Part shown: piece after piece, positions 2,212 through 9,633 of the stretch
How positions within the stretch are numbered: position 1 is the stretch's first letter
Layout: each line of letters begins with the position of its first letter
Source of the DNA: Neglectibacter sp. X58
GTDB taxonomy: Bacteria > Bacillota > Clostridia > Oscillospirales > Acutalibacteraceae
Assembly: GCF_009936035.1 (NCBI RefSeq)
Contig: NZ_QWEO01000004.1
Location: forward strand, 1 to 64,000
Direction of reading: 5' to 3'
DNA length: 64,000 nucleotides
The notes under the pieces: generated by a model
The model's database searches: none
What the model saw: only the letters and a program-made list of their open reading frames with translations
What the model was told of the DNA's origin: nothing
Translations under genes and position numbers: made by a program

Positions 2212-3648
2212 ATGGCACAGAAAAAAATGGTTAACGACATCACTTCTATGGACGTGGATTTTGCCCAGTGGTATACGGACATTGTGAAAAAGGCCCAGCT
2301 TGCCGACTATTCCGGCGTGAAGGGCTGCATAGTGTACCAGCCCTACGGCTATGCCATCTGGGAGAACATCCAGCGGGATATGGACAGGCGCTTTAAGGAG
2401 GCCGGGGTGCAGAACGTATATATGCCCATGCTTATCCCGGAAAGCCTGCTGCAAAAGGAAAAGGATCACATTGACGGCTTTGCCCCCGAGTGCGCGGCTG
2501 TAACCCAGGGGGGCGGGGAAAAGCTTTCCGAGACGCTTTATGTGCGCCCCACCAGCGAGGTGCTTTTCTGCGAGCACTATCAGAAAATCATCCACTCCTA
2601 CCGGGACTTGCCCAAGCTTTACAACCAGTGGTGCTCTGTTATGCGCTGGGAAAAAACCACCCGGCCTTTCCTGCGGGGCATGGAGTTTTTGTGGCAGGAG
2701 GGCCACACCATGCACGAAACCGCCGAGGAGGCACAGGCGTTCACCTTGAAGATGCTGAAAATTTATGAGGACGTGTACCGGGAAACCCTGGCTATCCCGC
2801 CGGTGGTGGGCAGAAAAACAGAAAAGGAAAAATTCGCCGGGGCCGAGGCCAGCTATACCCTGGAGCCTATGATGCATAACGGCGTGGCCCTCCAGGGCGG
2901 CACCACCCACTATTTCGGGGACGGCTTTGCAAAGGCCTTTGGCATCCAGTTTACCGGCCGGGACAACTCCCTGCAGGCCCCTTACCAGACCTCCTGGGGC
3001 ATGAGCACCCGCTTAATCGGCGCGGTGATTATGGTGCATGGCGACGACAACGGCCTGGTGCTGCCCCCCAGGGTGGCCCCGGTGCAGGTGGTTATCGTGC
3101 CCATTGCCCAGCACAAGCCCGGCGTGCTGGAGAAGGCAAAGGAAATCTGCGACGGACTGAGCCGGACGTTCCGGGTGAAGCTGGACGACAGCGACAACTC
3201 CCCGGGGTGGAAGTTTGCCCAGTATGAGATGCAGGGGGTGCCCCTGCGGCTGGAAATCGGGCCGAAGGACATGGAAAACGGCCAGTGCGTGCTGGTGCGC
3301 AGGGATACCGGGGAAAAGCAGTTCACATCCCTGGAGGGCCTGGAGGACGTTATAAAATCCCTGTTGGACACCATCCACGAGGATATGTTGGTTCGCGCCC
3401 AGAAAAACATGGAGGAAAAAACCTTCACAGCCCACAACCACGAGGAATTTTTGGATATTGCCCAGAACAAGCCCGGGTTTATCAAGGCCATGTGGTGCGG
3501 GGATTCCGCCTGCGAGGACAAGCTGAAGGAGGAGACAGGCGGGGTGAAGTCCCGCTGCATCCCCTTTGAGGAGGAGCATATCTCCGACGTGTGCGCCTGC
3601 TGCGGCAAGCCCGCAAAGCACATGGTGTATTGGGGAAGGCAGTATTAG
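2212..3648 (+). CDS. proS: Prolyl-tRNA synthetase, short archaeal/eukaryal type
   Basis: Charges tRNA-Pro with proline in the cytoplasm. The 478 residues match the short form of ProRS, which lacks the bacterial editing insertion, and include the class II core ([38 protein letters not shown]). The C-terminal zinc-type domain has clustered cysteines ([15 protein letters not shown]) and the protein ends in a Tyr, as in this subgroup. The start ATG is preceded by AAAGGA and a good promoter. It stands alone: the next gene follows through a repeated leader element beginning 12 bp after the stop. The archaeal-type enzyme is common in Clostridia and other anaerobes. Confidence 0.96.
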
Positions 3649-3660
3649 TGAAAATATAGA

Positions 3661-3737
3661 GGAAAGGGACGGTACGGGCGCAAAAAGCCGTCGTTTTATA
3701 GCTTTTTGTGCGTGTCCTGTATCGCATGGCGATTTTT
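3661..3737 (+). promoter_or_regulatory. Repeated structured leader element, copy A
   Basis: 73 bases (3661-3733) that align without gaps and with about 54 identities to the minus-strand leader of the HAD-GNAT gene (8905-8977). A Shine-Dalgarno-like GGAAAGGGA is followed by an outer stem CGGTAC/GTATCG and an inner 11-bp stem GCGCAAAAAGC/GCTTTTTGTGC, then CATGGCGAT and the start codon. Base changes between copies keep the stems paired. A leader that folds between the ribosome site and the start codon is the likely reading; a small mobile repeat is the alternative. Confidence 0.65.
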
Positions 3738-4148
3738 ATGTCAACCGCCTATTTTGGCATCGGCATTTATGTGAAGGGCAGCGTGGAAGCGGCAGAGCTT
3801 TACTGCGAGGCCTTTGGGCTGGAGCTGGGCTATCACGTTTTGAACGAGGATGGCAGTTACTTCCATTCGGAACTGATGAAGAATGGCGAGCCTGCCCTTT
3901 CTGTGGTGGAGGCTCCGGCTGCCCCTGGGGGGAACCCTGTTGAACTGGGCTATACCTTTAGCTGCCGGGAAGATCTGGAGGGGGCCTTTGCCCTTTTGAA
4001 GGCGGGCGGCAAGGTGAAGCTGGAGCCGGAGGAACTGCCCTGGTCCCCCCTGGCGGCTACAGTTACCGACCGCTTTGGCGTGAACTGGTTCCTAAGCCTG
4101 CCCCAGCACCTGCCGCCGGAGGATTTTAAGCCTGCGGGCTTCCAGTGA
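3738..4148 (+). CDS. VOC-fold (glyoxalase/PhnB-like) protein
   Basis: A 136-residue protein of the vicinal-oxygen-chelate fold, of the PhnB/3-demethylubiquinone methyltransferase-like type: beta strand FGIGIYVKGSVEAAELYCEAFGLE, then DGSYFHSEL and a C-terminal TVTDRFGVNWFLSLP. These small proteins bind metals or hydrophobic ligands; no substrate can be named from sequence. ATG 3738 is chosen because the protein then starts at its natural beta strand; ATG 3726, inside the repeated leader element, is in frame and would add MAIF. A terminator follows 60 bp downstream, so it is a single-gene unit unless co-transcribed with proS. Confidence 0.8.
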   Translation: MSTAYFGIGIYVKGSVEAAELYCEAFGLELGYHVLNEDGSYFHSELMKNGEPALSVVEAPAAPGGNPVELGYTFSCREDLEGAFALLKAGGKVKLEPEELPWSPLAATVTDRFGVNWFLSLPQHLPPEDFKPAGFQ

Positions 4149-4250: not shown

Positions 4251-4301
4251 CACGCGTGTTCAGGTTTAGGCTGGCTCTCCCAACAGCAGGCGGCGCTTTT
4301 T

Positions 4302-4505
4302 AGAACCTGTATTCATAATCGAAATTGCCAGATGAGCGAGAATTTTTGGAGCCAATCAAGGCAAATATTTCGCAAACGCATGTATGCGTTCGGCAGGCAA
4401 ACGTTAGCCGGAGGCTAACGTTTGCGCCTCTGCAAGAAAATTTAACACAGAGTGGCTTCAAAAAGGCCGCTCAGATGGTGGTTACAGGTTGTGAACACAG
4501 GTTCT
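4302..4505. mobile_element. MITE-like element with 17-bp terminal inverted repeats
   Basis: A 204-bp non-coding element bounded by AGAACCTGTATTCATAA (4302-4318) and TTGTGAACACAGGTTCT (4489-4505), 15 of 17 positions complementary. It contains a perfect 13-bp internal hairpin GCAAACGTTAGCC/GGCTAACGTTTGC (4397-4425, three-base loop). No transposase is encoded. Its right end lies inside the 3' end of the MATE gene and codes for that protein's last residues. No clear target-site duplication is visible. Confidence 0.7.
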
Positions 4506-5816
4506 TTGGTACAGGAGCAGGCCGGCGGCATCTGCCAAGGCCCAGCCGATGGGGATTGACCACCAGATGCCAATGACGCCTAAGGCGGGGATGGCGGAAA
4601 GGGCATAGGAGAGGGCCACCCGGGTGCCCAGGGAGATGACTGTGAGCACCACAGAGACGGCGGGTCGGCCCAAGGCCCGGTACAGCCCATAGAGCAGGAA
4701 CAGGCAGCCAATGCCGCAATAAAACGGCCCGATAATGCGGAGGTACTGGACACCCTGGGCGATGATGGCGGTTTGGGAGGCGTCCACGAAAATGAGCATC
4801 AGGGGCTTTGCCAGGAACCACAGGGCCAGGGAAACCAGCAGGCAATAGGACACAGAGGTGAGCACGCCCCAGCGCACCCCTTTTTTGATGCGCCCCGTCT
4901 CCCCTGCCCCCCGGTTTTGGGCGATGAAGGTGGAAAAGGCGTTGCCAAATTCCTGGGCGGGCATGTAGGCAAAGGAATCTATCTTCACCCCGGCGGCAAA
5001 GGCCGCCATCACGGTGGTGCCGAAGCTGTTCACCAGCCCCTGCACCATGAGGATGCCCAGGTTCATGACCGACTGCTGCAGGCAGGTGAGGAAGGAATAC
5101 CGGACGATTTCCCCCAGCCCCGCTTTTTCCACCCGGAAGCTTTTGAAAGCTTGGCGCAGGGGCTGGTTTTTCCAGAGGGTATACAGGGCGATGCCTATGC
5201 CGGAGATGTATTGGGCTATTACTGTGGCTGCCGCCGCCCCTGCGGCCCCCTGCCTCCACACAGCCACCAGCAGGATGTCCAGGCCGATATTCAGAGCGGT
5301 GGACAGGCCCAGGAACAGCAGGGGCACCACAGAATCCCCCAGGGCTTTCAGGTAGGCTCCGAAGAAGTTATACAGGGCTATGGCGGGGATGCCCCAGAAC
5401 ACCAGGATCAGGTATTCCCGGGCCATGGCGGCAATTTCCCCGGGAATATTCATCCAGCGGATAATCCTGTCCACCCCCAGCAGGGCGCAGGCTGTGAGCA
5501 GGCCCCCCAGGGCTGCTGTGAGGGCAAAGGCGCTGGCTATGCTGCTTTGGAGCCGCTGGGGGTTCCGGCTGCCAAAGCACAGGGAAAACACCACCCCGCT
5601 GCCCATGCACAGCCCCAGCAGGACAGAGGTGAGGAAGGTCATCAGCGCAAAGGCGGATCCCACTGCCGCCAAGGCCCCGGGGCCTACAAAGCGGCCCACC
5701 ACCCAGGTGTCCACCAGGTTATAGCCCTGCTGCAAAAGGTTTCCCAGAATCATGGGCAGGGCAAAGGCACACATGGTTTGAAACACAGGGCCTTTTGTCA
5801 GATCTTTTTGAAACAT
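4482..5816 (-). CDS. MATE family multidrug/cation antiporter
   Basis: A 444-residue membrane protein with about twelve hydrophobic helices and the MATE signature near the N-terminus (LPMILGNLLQQGYNLVDTWVVGRF, here quoted in parts: LPMILGNLLQQ, NLVDTWVVGRF). These proteins export drugs or cationic metabolites in exchange for Na+ or H+. It starts with ATG 5816, three bases after the stop of the SpoU methylase gene (5820), so the two are probably one transcript. The final residues RTCVHNL and the stop codon are encoded by the terminal repeat of the MITE-like element, so the native C-terminus has been replaced; the change lies after the last membrane helix and may be harmless. Confidence 0.92.
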   Translation of the reverse strand: MFQKDLTKGPVFQTMCAFALPMILGNLLQQGYNLVDTWVVGRFVGPGALAAVGSAFALMTFLTSVLLGLCMGSGVVFSLCFGSRNPQRLQSSIASAFALTAALGGLLTACALLGVDRIIRWMNIPGEIAAMAREYLILVFWGIPAIALYNFFGAYLKALGDSVVPLLFLGLSTALNIGLDILLVAVWRQGAAGAAAATVIAQYISGIGIALYTLWKNQPLRQAFKSFRVEKAGLGEIVRYSFLTCLQQSVMNLGILMVQGLVNSFGTTVMAAFAAGVKIDSFAYMPAQEFGNAFSTFIAQNRGAGETGRIKKGVRWGVLTSVSYCLLVSLALWFLAKPLMLIFVDASQTAIIAQGVQYLRIIGPFYCGIGCLFLLYGLYRALGRPAVSVVLTVISLGTRVALSYALSAIPALGVIGIWWSIPIGWALADAAGLLLYQRTCVHNL

Positions 5817-6755: not shown

Positions 6756-7571
6756 TCAGTGCCGGGGCTTATAGTGCCCGCCGCCTCTGCGGGGGGCCGG
6801 GCGCTCCTGGCGCGGCGAAGCGCCTTCCTGTCTGGAGGGCAGGGGCCTTGCAGGCTGCTCGGCTGGACTTTCCTCCAGCATGGCGATGAGGGGTTTCTCC
6901 TGGGCAGTGCTTTCCTGACGGGGCGGAATGCCTTCCCGCCGTGGCGGAATGCTTTCCCGCCTGGGCGGAGGGGCTTCCTCCTCGTCCTCCGCAAAACGGG
7001 CCTGTTCCCTGGAACCGCGGGAGACAGGGGCCTCATAGGGGTCTTCCCCGCCGTAATCTACCAGGGGGCCTTCCAGCCGGGCTGTGCCTCGAGAAAGCAG
7101 GATGGGCACCAGCAGCAGGGCCAGCCCCAGCACCACGAGAACTGCCAGCCCTGCCGGGGAATATAAAAACGCGGCCAAAGCCCCGCAGCCCGGCAGGAAG
7201 GTTACACACACCGCCACCACCCGGGCGGGATCCAGCAGGTTTACGTCAGGCTGGCCGAAAGCCTCCTGCTGGGTGATATACATGCCCTCGCTGGTGCCTA
7301 CAATCCGGCGCAGCAGCAGTTCCCCATCCTGCTGGAAAGCCACAATGTCTCCGGGCTGGCACTGGCTTCCCATGCGCAGGATTGCCAAATCCCCGGGGTA
7401 AAGGGAAGGCGTCATTTCCCCGTTTGCCACGGTAAAGGGCGCATAGCCCAAAAGGGTGGGGGGCGACTCCTGCTTCACGCTGGAGCTGTAGAGCAGGGCG
7501 CCGCCTGCTACAAGCAGCACCAGCAGCACCAGCGCCAGAAGAATCCGTACAATCCAGATAAAAGCCTTCAT
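6756..7571 (-). CDS. SipW-like signal-peptidase-fold protein lacking catalytic residues
   Basis: A 271-residue membrane protein: N-terminal helix (IWIVRILLALVLLVLLVAGGALL), an extracytoplasmic S26-type peptidase fold, a second helix (residues about 133-160) and a long Pro/Arg/Glu-rich cytoplasmic tail. The peptidase part has NGEMTPSLYPGDLAIL where active enzymes have SGSMxPxxxxGDL, so the nucleophile Ser is Glu, and LLRRIV where SipW-type enzymes have HRI. Both catalytic positions therefore seem lost. It could be a binding or regulatory pseudoenzyme. The start overlaps the stop of the HAD-GNAT gene by 4 bp, so translation is likely coupled. Confidence 0.75.
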   Translation of the reverse strand: MKAFIWIVRILLALVLLVLLVAGGALLYSSSVKQESPPTLLGYAPFTVANGEMTPSLYPGDLAILRMGSQCQPGDIVAFQQDGELLLRRIVGTSEGMYITQQEAFGQPDVNLLDPARVVAVCVTFLPGCGALAAFLYSPAGLAVLVVLGLALLLVPILLSRGTARLEGPLVDYGGEDPYEAPVSRGSREQARFAEDEEEAPPPRRESIPPRREGIPPRQESTAQEKPLIAMLEESPAEQPARPLPSRQEGASPRQERPAPRRGGGHYKPRH

Positions 7572-8899
7572 ACCTGTTTCAGCCCCTTTTCCATCACTGT
7601 ATTTTCAAGCTCTACCATCTGCCCCGTTTCCGGGTGCGGGCGCTTTACCCGCTGGTCTTTCACGGCCCTGTATCCCAGCTTTTCAAAAAAGCCCCGGGCC
7701 GACCTGGAAGCATGGACAGTTATCCGGGCCTGCCCCTGCCGTCCGGCTTCTTCCTCCAAGGCGGAAGCCAGGGCTTTGGCAGCGCCCCGGCCCTGGAAGT
7801 CCCGGTGGATATAGAGCCTGTCTACATATCCGCCGTCTAAGTCTGCAAAGCCTATAATCCGGCCTGTTTCATCCTCTGCCACCAGGGCGAAGTGGCGCAA
7901 AAGGGAGGAGCGCCACGCCTCTCTGTCCCACTTTTCCACAGGAAGCGCCCAGGCTTCCACCTGCTCCCGGGTGTATTCCATTTGGCAGACGGTGTGTACT
8001 GTGCCCCAAAACAGGCGGTATACCTCATCCAAATCGCTTTCCCTGAACCTCCGCAGGGAAAACTTCTTTTGGGGAGGCTTTGGCAGGTCCACATTCCGAA
8101 GCAGCCATTTTGCCACCCCGTCCTCCTCGTTGCTGCCGATAATTTCTGTGGCCGCCCCTTGCAGCTTTGGCACCGCGTTTGCCACAGCGCACTTCACGTC
8201 CGCGGCCTCAAACAAGGGCAGGTCGTTTATGGCGTCTCCAAAGGCTACCATCCTGTCGCAGCCCAGCAGCTCTTTCAGCTTCCTGGCGGCATTGGCCTTG
8301 GTGGCTTCCTTTGGCATCAGCTCCAGCCAGTATTCCTCCCGGTACAGTTCCTGCTGGAAGGTGGCTGTAAGCCAGGGCTGTGCCGCCGCCTGCTGATACA
8401 GGGGCAGAAGGGCCTCCCTCTCCCCTATAAAGGTGAAGTAAAAAGCCTCCCCCTGGTACAGCGCTTCCTGGGAGGATACCCCCCGCAGGCGCTTGTCCCA
8501 TTCCCGGTTTTGCAGGTAATAGGCCTGGCCCGGCGTTTCCTTCCCCCGCACCCAGGAAAGCCGCTCCACGCCCTCCACAAAGGCGTACACCACAGGCCAC
8601 AGGGAAAGCGCCTCCGCCTGCTTTTCCACCCAGGCGGCCTGCTCCGGCGTGAAGCCTGCCCGGAACAGGGGCTTCCCTTCCGGGCCTTCCAGGATGAAGG
8701 CCCCGTTATAGACGATGACCGGCAGGTTCCGGGTGAGGCCCTGGGTTACCCGCACTGCCGAATGGTTGGATCGTGCTGTGGCAAAGGTGAAATGCATCCC
8801 CCGCTCTATGAGATGGTTCAGCGCCCACACCGTAAATTCCGAAAGGCGCTCGTTTCGTTGCAGCAGCGTCCCGTCCAAATCGCTTACATATAATGTCAT
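7568..8899 (-). CDS. HAD-superfamily (Cof-type) phosphatase fused to GNAT acetyltransferase
   Basis: A 443-residue two-domain protein. Residues 1 to about 265 are a Cof/HAD-IIB hydrolase with motif I YVSDLDGTLL and motif IV GDAINDLPLFEAA; these dephosphorylate sugar phosphates or cofactors. Residues about 285-443 are a GNAT N-acetyltransferase with FSLRRFRESDLDEV and the acyl-CoA loop FQGRGAAKAL. I know the two parts as separate genes. ATG 8899 gives the normal HAD N-terminus; in-frame ATGs at 8905 and 8911 lie in the repeated leader element. Substrates are unknown. Confidence 0.88.
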   Translation of the reverse strand: MTLYVSDLDGTLLQRNERLSEFTVWALNHLIERGMHFTFATARSNHSAVRVTQGLTRNLPVIVYNGAFILEGPEGKPLFRAGFTPEQAAWVEKQAEALSLWPVVYAFVEGVERLSWVRGKETPGQAYYLQNREWDKRLRGVSSQEALYQGEAFYFTFIGEREALLPLYQQAAAQPWLTATFQQELYREEYWLELMPKEATKANAARKLKELLGCDRMVAFGDAINDLPLFEAADVKCAVANAVPKLQGAATEIIGSNEEDGVAKWLLRNVDLPKPPQKKFSLRRFRESDLDEVYRLFWGTVHTVCQMEYTREQVEAWALPVEKWDREAWRSSLLRHFALVAEDETGRIIGFADLDGGYVDRLYIHRDFQGRGAAKALASALEEEAGRQGQARITVHASRSARGFFEKLGYRAVKDQRVKRPHPETGQMVELENTVMEKGLKQV

Positions 8900-8977
8900 G
8901 CCCATCGCCATGCGATACAGAATCCGCACAGAAAGCCATAAAAAACAGCCTTTTATGCCTGGTATCGTTCCTTTCTG
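8900..8977 (-). promoter_or_regulatory. Repeated structured leader element, copy B
   Basis: Read on the minus strand: AGAAAGGAA (a near-complete anti-16S match), outer stem CGATAC/GTATCG, inner stem GCATAAAAGGC/GCTTTCTGTGC (10 of 11 positions pair), then CATGGCGAT and the start ATG. It is gap-free with copy A at 3661-3733 with paired substitutions in the stems. Confidence 0.65.
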
Positions 8978-8997
8978 TAAGATTTTTCGTAACACTT

Positions 8998-9633
8998 CTA
9001 AATCTTGAGATGTTTCCTGCACAATTCGTAAATCTCCCCTGTGCAAAGCCATTTCCGCAGGGTGGCAAGTCCCTGCTCGTTTTGGGGGCAGGGCAGATAC
9101 CGCCGCATATAGCCCTCTTCCCCATATTTCTCCCGGATGTGCTCCACTGCCCGGCGCACCTGGGCTTCCGCTGAAAGCTCCGGCTTTGTGGCGAGGCCGT
9201 ATTCCATCACCCGCCGGACAATGCGCTGGGGGTCAATATCCCGGTCGGCCTCGCTGACAATGCGTCCATACACAGAGCGGGGCTCTTTCCCGGAGGAGGC
9301 CCTGTGATCTTCCACAGCCTCCCCCATGGTTTTTATCTGCCCGGGAGAAAACCACCGGGAAAGGTTCTTGTCTGCCAGCAGGTAAGCCCCGGAGGTTTTC
9401 TCGTGGTTTTCCCTGCCAAACTGCAGGCCTGTGTCATGGTAGGCGGCAATGGCGTAGACCATGCCTGCGTCCACCTCTCCGAAAAGCTCCCGGGCGGCGG
9501 GGATAAGGGCCAGGCTGTTTTCCAGCACCTGCCGCACATGGGCCGGCCCGTGGGCCGCGTCAAAGCCCTGGTACAGGGGCAGGATGTTTGTTTCTATGTA
9601 CACTTTCAGTTCCTGGTTGATTTGTTCCATCAT
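8998..9633 (-). CDS. HD-domain phosphohydrolase
   Basis: A soluble 211-residue protein of the HD superfamily, metal-dependent phosphohydrolases of nucleotides. The metal ligands are visible: HGPAHVRQVL, the HD pair in AAYHDTGLQF, and a downstream Asp in SEADRDIDP. ATG 9633 follows GGGAGTGTGCAG; ATG 9630 is equally possible. It reads in the same direction as, and 98 bp upstream of, the HAD-GNAT gene. Its nucleotide substrate cannot be deduced. Confidence 0.8.
   Translation of the reverse strand: MMEQINQELKVYIETNILPLYQGFDAAHGPAHVRQVLENSLALIPAARELFGEVDAGMVYAIAAYHDTGLQFGRENHEKTSGAYLLADKNLSRWFSPGQIKTMGEAVEDHRASSGKEPRSVYGRIVSEADRDIDPQRIVRRVMEYGLATKPELSAEAQVRRAVEHIREKYGEEGYMRRYLPCPQNEQGLATLRKWLCTGEIYELCRKHLKI

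Follow-up and report, generated by a model that had tools for sequence, protein, structure and literature searches.

A dispersed hairpin element that probably brings its own split translation-initiation region to genes of Neglectibacter sp. X58

The genome of Neglectibacter sp. X58 contains a dispersed family of RNA elements, each about 95 nucleotides long and built around a hairpin. Most copies lie in front of start codons and not inside coding sequences. Judging from sequence comparison, we think it fairly probable that this is a non-autonomous and probably mobile dispersed element, equipped with a split translation-initiation region of its own. As read from alignments of many copies, both stems of the hairpin are maintained as RNA by compensatory change.

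Copies, anatomy and position

Two copies lie in the window, which is the whole 64,000-nucleotide stretch of DNA that was analysed. Copy A lies between proS and the gene for a VOC protein, and copy B precedes a gene for a HAD-GNAT fusion:

3643..3740, + strand: copy A, whole element to start codon, a covariance-model match between proS and the VOC gene
3646-3648: stop codon of proS, the upstream neighbour of copy A
3662..3669, + strand: copy A, Shine-Dalgarno half GAAAGGGA, which pairs with the 16S tail ..CCUCCUUUCUA
3670..3675, + strand: copy A, P1 (outer stem), 5' arm CGGTAC
3678..3688, + strand: copy A, P2 (inner stem), 5' arm GCGCAAAAAGC
3701..3711, + strand: copy A, P2 (inner stem), 3' arm GCTTTTTGTGC
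3719..3724, + strand: copy A, P1 (outer stem), 3' arm GTATCG
3728..3734, + strand: copy A, conserved GGCGATT, the right end of the element and a possible second Shine-Dalgarno half
3738..3740, + strand: VOC start codon, 3 nt past the element; the aligned codon is the start of the ortholog in the congener G027, where it follows a plain Shine-Dalgarno
8897..8994, - strand: copy B, whole element to start codon, before the HAD-GNAT gene
8969..8975, - strand: copy B, Shine-Dalgarno half GAAAGGA
8962..8967, - strand: copy B, P1 5' arm CGATAC
8948..8958, - strand: copy B, P2 5' arm GCATAAAAGGC
8926..8936, - strand: copy B, P2 3' arm GCTTTCTGTGC
8913..8918, - strand: copy B, P1 3' arm GTATCG
8897..8899, - strand: HAD-GNAT start codon ATG

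The original prediction was that these two leaders are alike. Aligned without gaps, 3661-3733 (+ strand) and 8904-8976 (- strand) are indeed identical at 54 of 73 positions, although the minus-strand span that had been given (8905-8977) was one base off. Shuffled sequences of the same length and composition reached 18.7 identities on average and 36 at most (2000 shuffles). The Shine-Dalgarno, the outer stem, the inner stem, and CATGGCGAT all stand where they had been placed in both leaders, and the downstream genes are unrelated, as claimed (a VOC/glyoxalase protein versus a HAD plus GNAT protein). The similarity is not due to chance: a 79-nt leader used as a BLAST query has 41 matches in the same genome, and a covariance model built from 26 copies has 107 (E ≤ 1). 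We inspected 92 of these 107 matches, namely the best 72 and 20 lower-scoring ones. The other 15 are weaker (E about 0.004 to 0.94), and one of them (C89:115703) was scored for P1 only.

The consensus order is GTGTGAAAAATACnAAGAAAGGAA, then P1 (CGATAC/GTATCG) enclosing P2, then CATGGCGATT, three arbitrary nucleotides, and the start. When the copies are aligned on sequence anchors, the left end is fuzzy: (TA)GTGTG-AAAAATAC is followed by AGAAAGGAA and by the 5' arm of P1, CGATAC. P2 is a hairpin nested within P1, with consensus arms GCACAAAAAG/CTTTTTGTGC. The right end is sharp, with GTATCG (the 3' arm of P1) running directly into its final motif. The profile of the 60 best copies shows AAAGGA as conserved. 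Two pairs of copies stand in tandem, head to tail (#43/#11 at G000:C101:10908-11096 and #65/#34 at G000:C32:28817-28997), and in each pair the downstream copy is at a start codon.

The original prediction knew of no riboswitch with this consensus, and Rfam has no match to the element either. At the gathering score, the window gives only three tRNAs, and 3600-3800 has no match up to E = 5. Within the limited collection of literature that we searched, we found no paper that apparently describes the element.

Other repeats occur in these genomes. Near-perfect over its length, a long palindrome at 4297-4506 of the window (predicted at -96 kcal/mol) has 17-nt terminal inverted repeats beginning AGAACCTGT and partial copies elsewhere in the same genome and in congeners (for example G013, G020, and G026); it belongs to a MITE-like family that is separate from the hairpin element. 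A 106-nt repeat at L205 11417-11522 (G000:C102:89416-89521) has tens of copies in G020 and G027. Its ending, ..GTTAACTATAAA, also immediately precedes element copies #56 and L076. Many partial copies of a 146-nt repeat (L205 17542-17687) are present in G001.

The position of the element relative to start codons is regular. A start codon that opens a reading frame of at least 40 amino acids lies 0-5 nt past GATT in 60 of the best 72 copies. The distance is 3 nt in 40 copies, 4 nt in 12, 0 nt in three, 5 nt in two, 2 nt in two, and 1 nt in one. Among the remaining 12, the start is farther off in five and there is none in seven. The 20 lower-scoring matches include 11 with a start at the end of the element and a reading frame of at least 45 amino acids, two with an ATG that lacks such a frame in the fetched stretch (L318 and L323), and seven without a start there. 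Outside this genome, the 18-mer scan of GTDB genomes described below returned 35 Clostridia stretches with 39 copies; the start lies at exactly 3 nt in 30 of these copies and at 0 or 4 nt in five. GTG and TTG starts stand at the same distance as ATG (#42, #45, L139, L150, and L293). Within CATGG, GG is kept in 66 of 72 copies and RTG in 57; the other 15 have neither ATG nor GTG.

We noticed one copy in G027 (L157 / L078) in which GAT-ATT-AAG comes after the right end and no usual start for a 40-aa frame lies within reach. Its gene may be broken or may begin at a rare ATT. Also, the lists of open reading frames run the genes at 3708-4148 and 7568-9052 in frame into the element (..YRMAI.. and ..YRMAM..). 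Because the element can be read in frame in this way (..YRMAI..), automatic annotation and gene callers may misplace N-termini.

Both stems are maintained as RNA by compensatory change

The original prediction held that stem differences between copies A and B were mostly compensated. This does not hold for these two copies: five pairs differ and none of the five is changed on both sides. In four, a change on one side creates or removes a wobble pair, and in the fifth the pair is broken. Compensation is visible only when many copies are aligned. The proposed check, a covariance model, did bear out the idea on that scale: covariation exceeded that of shuffles by far, and the copies were regularly placed just ahead of start codons. 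Across 86 aligned copies, P1 and P2 are paired in 93.5% of cells, and there are 54 double-changed cells versus 17.7 in shuffles; none of 500 shuffles reached any of five measures. The second set, with 39 copies from other species, agrees (0-1 of 500 shuffles).

P1 was imposed in covariance model R2, so pair counts on the alignments derived from it (A2-A4) lean towards P1. Because these alignments were fitted to structure, we re-tested P1 on ungapped sequence anchors, which use no structure. Among 72 copies, 402 of 432 cells are paired (the maximum in 1000 shuffles was 393), and there are 18 double changes versus a shuffle mean of 5.1 and a maximum of 11, so that none of the 1000 shuffles reached this count. 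With the partner arm slid out of place, just 22-47% of cells are paired in three slides. At one position of P1, a tree of the copies implies at least nine changes to or from C, and a G stands opposite in nine of the ten C-bearing copies. This tree was built without the P1 columns and is poorly supported; its supported branches give only one independent pair for that position. The independence of the P1 changes is therefore likely but not proven, and the compensatory changes may partly have been inherited within a burst of copies. Excluding the innermost pair, G-U combinations outnumber A-C ones by 111 to 32, which points to folding of the sense RNA.

The stems also persist where the sequence around them has changed. 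An orthologous gene in G001 and G020 (L075 and L080; 67% protein identity) carries the element in both genomes, with stems that have been rewritten and are still complementary. In this genome and in G001, P2 is missing or the interior has been replaced in several short copies, yet these are still predicted to fold with a free Shine-Dalgarno, a stem, a free 3' part, and a start.

P1 is better kept at start codons than elsewhere. Among 21 low-scoring matches in structure-fitted alignments, counting L318 and L323 as starts, a mean of 5.2 of the 6 P1 pairs are kept at starts (n = 13) versus 3.3 elsewhere (n = 8; one-sided p = 0.008). For P2, starts and other places do not differ in this way in the low-scoring set, and L316 is a start copy that has lost P1. 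The contrast is smaller in the top 72, where the means are 5.7 for the 60 start copies and 5.0 for the 12 others.

Thermodynamic prediction gives a more mixed picture. The predicted probability of P1 exceeds 0.5 in 47 of 72 copies. For copy A it is about 0, and a small hairpin, P3 (ATCGC-ATG-GCGAT), has a probability of 0.93. When we folded 19 hand-chosen leaders, the minimum-energy fold lacked P1 in copy A and in L066 from G017, and the hairpin of L077 from G026 barely beat shuffles (z = -1.4). The RNAalifold consensus of 26 copies contains P2 plus P3 and not P1. We rejected P3 as the main structure, given its weak covariation overall and its absence from several divergent forms.

Spread and insertion sites

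The element is patchily distributed. With stricter filters and E ≤ 0.01, we searched 60 genomes, including this one, with the model and found 69 copies in this genome, 18 in the congener G027, four in G001, three in G020, two each in G005, G026, and G028, and one each in five others; the remaining 48 genomes had none. An order-wide sample of 396 genomes, again with strict filters and with 10 candidates scored per genome, had the element in six, this genome included. The 18-mer scan of GTDB genomes returned 48 stretches, and 35 of these are from Clostridia and continue into the rest of the element. The other 13 (12 from proteobacteria and one from Acidobacteria) do not and look like chance matches. 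There were no exact matches to GTATCGCATGGCGATT-NNN-ATG in the IMG/VR viral contigs.

Orthologous sites without the element occur in relatives. We considered a set of 11 copies: for #53 and #70 no alignment was possible, and #43 forms a tandem pair with #11. At all eight alignable sites (#11, 13, 21, 22, 25, 48, 52, and 59), which include both sites in the window, the long element is missing from at least one relative. Six of the eight element-free sites have a plain Shine-Dalgarno leader; #13 and #21 are not at a start. At the proS-VOC site, G027 has CAGTATTGAAAGGAGCTGAATTATG with no insert. At the HAD-GNAT site, G002 has TCAAAGGAGGGAAGGGCATG, versus ..GGCGATGGGCATG in this genome. At site #11, G001 has a short hairpin form. 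The copy number, the patchy distribution, and the element-free sites suggest that the element is probably mobile and non-autonomous.

Its ends are unlike those of a plain MITE. A permutation analysis of 62 copies gave no general target-site duplication (largest z = 1.8); only copy #21 has a possible direct repeat of 7-9 nt, seen by eye. In the end profiles there are no terminal inverted repeats, with GTGTGAAAAATAC on the left versus the GATT-ending motif on the right. Without general target-site duplication and with ends that are not mutual inverted repeats, the element is not the plain MITE that the original prediction had named as evidence against an RNA element. A longer element with this right end did not turn up in the assembly either: among 64 matches to the right end (up to three mismatches), 62 are known copies, and the other two look like chance.

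How the copies came to stand at start codons may be explained by random insertion followed by selection, in which neutral copies decay, or by aimed insertion. The better preservation of P1 at starts than elsewhere fits selection on random insertions. Well-preserved copies are scarce elsewhere, which is still compatible with aimed insertion. As a full account, we consider it rather doubtful that the element is aimed at translation start sites, inserting a few nucleotides before the start and behind the native Shine-Dalgarno, and that it is harmless because ribosomes initiate across the folded hairpin, which would make it the initiation-stage counterpart of the mitochondrial bypassing elements. 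As ATG, GTG, and TTG starts are all at the same distance, such aiming could use the initiating ribosome or the mRNA and not a DNA motif. A Shine-Dalgarno-like pentamer is found upstream of the insert in 17 of 72 copies, versus 30 of 288 control stretches (single-base shuffles: mean 11.4, maximum 20), which is no more than suggestive of a native Shine-Dalgarno that remains upstream of the insert.

Initiation across the hairpin and related systems

The 16S rRNA of this genome ends in GGATCACCTCCTTTCTA, which is complementary to AGAAAGGA in the element. The 5' Shine-Dalgarno part alone pairs with the 16S tail at a mean of -11.1 kcal/mol across the 60 start copies, and the stretch between the hairpin and the start pairs at -6.1 kcal/mol. 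The plain leaders of relatives (n = 8) have a mean of -12.9 kcal/mol. Because the 5' part comes near the energy of plain leaders and the 3' stretch is weaker, the working Shine-Dalgarno is probably 5' of the hairpin. The consensus distance from there to the start is about 68 nt, of which about 14 are unpaired when P1 is folded; an effective spacing of about 14 nt exceeds the usual.

The arrangement is thus that of a split initiation region: a Shine-Dalgarno complementary to the 16S tail lies 5' of the hairpin, the start lies 3' of it with no good Shine-Dalgarno between, and the stem that separates them is conserved by compensatory changes that are probably independent. On this reading, the ribosome would bind AGAAAGGA while the P1/P2 hairpin stays folded and looped out, which would present the start codon on the far side at a usable distance. 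Copies that happened to land as the initiation region of a gene would be kept by selection, so that their P1 is preserved, and copies elsewhere would decay. Of the two readings in the original prediction, the one that fits best is the small repeat that brings an initiation region with it; that the element is a structured 5' element that "controls" initiation is unproven.

The pairing might even be bipartite. When the hairpin is notionally removed, AGAAAGGA runs straight into GG(C/T)GATT; the joined sequence is complementary to nearly the whole 16S tail, and its core lies 8 nt from the start. GGYGATT past the hairpin could possibly pair with AUCACC of the tail as well. Joining the 3' half-site gains 3.7 kcal/mol, versus 2.6 for shuffled 3' parts. 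Because this excess is just about 1.1 kcal/mol, we treat bipartite pairing as a weakly supported suggestion. The better retention of GG than of RTG does not decide the matter.

An unlikely alternative to the split initiation region is that the element is a true regulatory leader that a protein, temperature, or a small molecule would switch between a P1 and a P3 state, making a regulon of about 100 genes. The P1 state would expose the Shine-Dalgarno with the start close by, and the P3 state would bury GGCGAT; the two share ATCG and are mutually exclusive. There are hints of P3 in the sequences. At its second pair, a G stands opposite in 7 of 10 copies with C versus 7 of 62 with T (p = 2e-4 among 71 of 72 copies, uncorrected for relatedness), #4, L322, and L293 have matched ATCAC..GTGAT forms, P3 is in the RNAalifold consensus, and it is predicted to be dominant in 11 of 72 copies, with copy A among those that prefer it. 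However, P3 as a whole barely exceeds shuffles (7 of 1000 reach its pairing and 6 of 1000 its double changes), and it is missing from several short and divergent forms that retain P1.

The genes that carry the element do not look like a regulon either. We scanned 29 of them for Pfam families (along with ProRS, which is merely a neighbour and not a carrier), and they are functionally mixed. Families include PRA-PH (HisE-type), TruB, GreA, RapZ, ribulose-phosphate epimerase, an RNB-domain exoribonuclease, MinD/ParA-type ATPases, several transporters, a family-32 glycosyl hydrolase, a glycosyltransferase, and acetyltransferases. We also compared 66 downstream proteins of this genome, all against all, with 57 from elsewhere (some records appear twice). 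Only two clear ortholog pairs between genomes emerged among those compared, both within the genus (G000_64/L079 at 81% and L075/L080 at 67%). More distant family members are G000_62/L152 (35%), L124/L151 (38% over 76 amino acids), and ABC ATPases (24-28%). Neither the Pfam scan of 29 genes nor the protein comparison links the element to one pathway across species. Since carrier genes of different species are seldom related, this argues against a conserved regulon of the riboswitch type.

It is quite unlikely, in our view, that the element is a plain selfish repeat, that is, a MITE- or REP-like DNA hairpin that favours purine-rich start regions and whose RNA stem is a by-product of a hairpin used in transposition. 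Such a repeat would account for the copy number, the patchiness, the element-free orthologous sites, and the tandem pairs, and a hairpin of single-stranded DNA would tolerate G-T as well. But it would not explain why P1 is better kept at start codons, why P1 is rewritten yet still paired in an orthologous gene pair, or why P2 can vanish while P1 stays; and terminal inverted repeats, a general target duplication, and a longer element with the same right end are all lacking, as described above.

We think it very unlikely that the element supplies the start codon itself, with the ATG in GCATGGCGATT beginning a fused N-terminus (MAI-x-M...). This ATG would be a short distance from the Shine-Dalgarno with P1 folded, most copies have RTG there, and it shares the reading frame of the gene in 43 of the 60 start copies. 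But the other 17 are out of frame, so we rejected it as the general start. Also, the ATG is intact in out-of-frame copies (#10, 26, 31, 44, 50, 56, 58, 62, and 67), versions with ACG, GCG, AGG, or GGG stand beside intact genes, and the preferred spacing is accounted for by the native start. Conserved coding of the 3' arm (VRILYRMAI) or a GTG-AAA-AAT leader peptide was set aside because, by inspection, the frames differ between copies.

To our knowledge, hairpin-split ribosome-binding sites have been described only from single genes. If the element does carry a split initiation region, this one genome seems to hold about 100 such sites, before genes that include likely housekeeping functions, and they would form a natural panel of variants (in stem length, in spacing, and with the second stem lost) for initiation across a folded insert.

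The closest comparison is with genes 25 and 38 of phage T4. According to PMC3014915, RNA structure cuts the spacing between Shine-Dalgarno and start from 27 to 11 nt in one gene and from 22 to 5 nt in the other. Initiation becomes less efficient when mutations weaken the structure, and the gene 25 arrangement is restricted to certain lineages. There, as in our element, structure between the Shine-Dalgarno and the start shortens the distance. The T4 cases are single genes, whereas here there are about 100 copies with element-free sites, the two-stem insert is much longer, and the function is inferred. Another single gene is thrS of E. coli, which is autoregulated and whose hairpin is bound by ThrRS. 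This hairpin is inside a split ribosome-binding site and is reportedly accommodated without unfolding (PMC3936740). Both systems place a hairpin within a split site, but our carrier genes are unrelated.

The TAACTGA repeats of Beggiatoaceae are, according to PMC4679880, numerous and dispersed, a few nucleotides from start codons, without a pattern in gene function, and patchy across lineages; they are 7-nt direct repeats that overlap the expected Shine-Dalgarno position and have little Shine-Dalgarno character. Our element is likewise dispersed near the starts of mixed genes and patchy, but it is long and structured and carries a Shine-Dalgarno.

Mitochondrial byps are spreading hairpins inside coding sequences that are thought to be skipped by the ribosome during elongation. 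The element in Neglectibacter is also a hairpin that has probably spread, but it stands before the start codon: most copies precede a start and so are not byps in that sense. Bacterial MITEs and REP elements are short, non-coding, multi-copy, and patchy, and they lack a transposase of their own. The element differs from them in having neither terminal inverted repeats nor a general target duplication, and in its fixed place and orientation at starts. Although short and without an enzyme of its own, the element is placed precisely at start codons.
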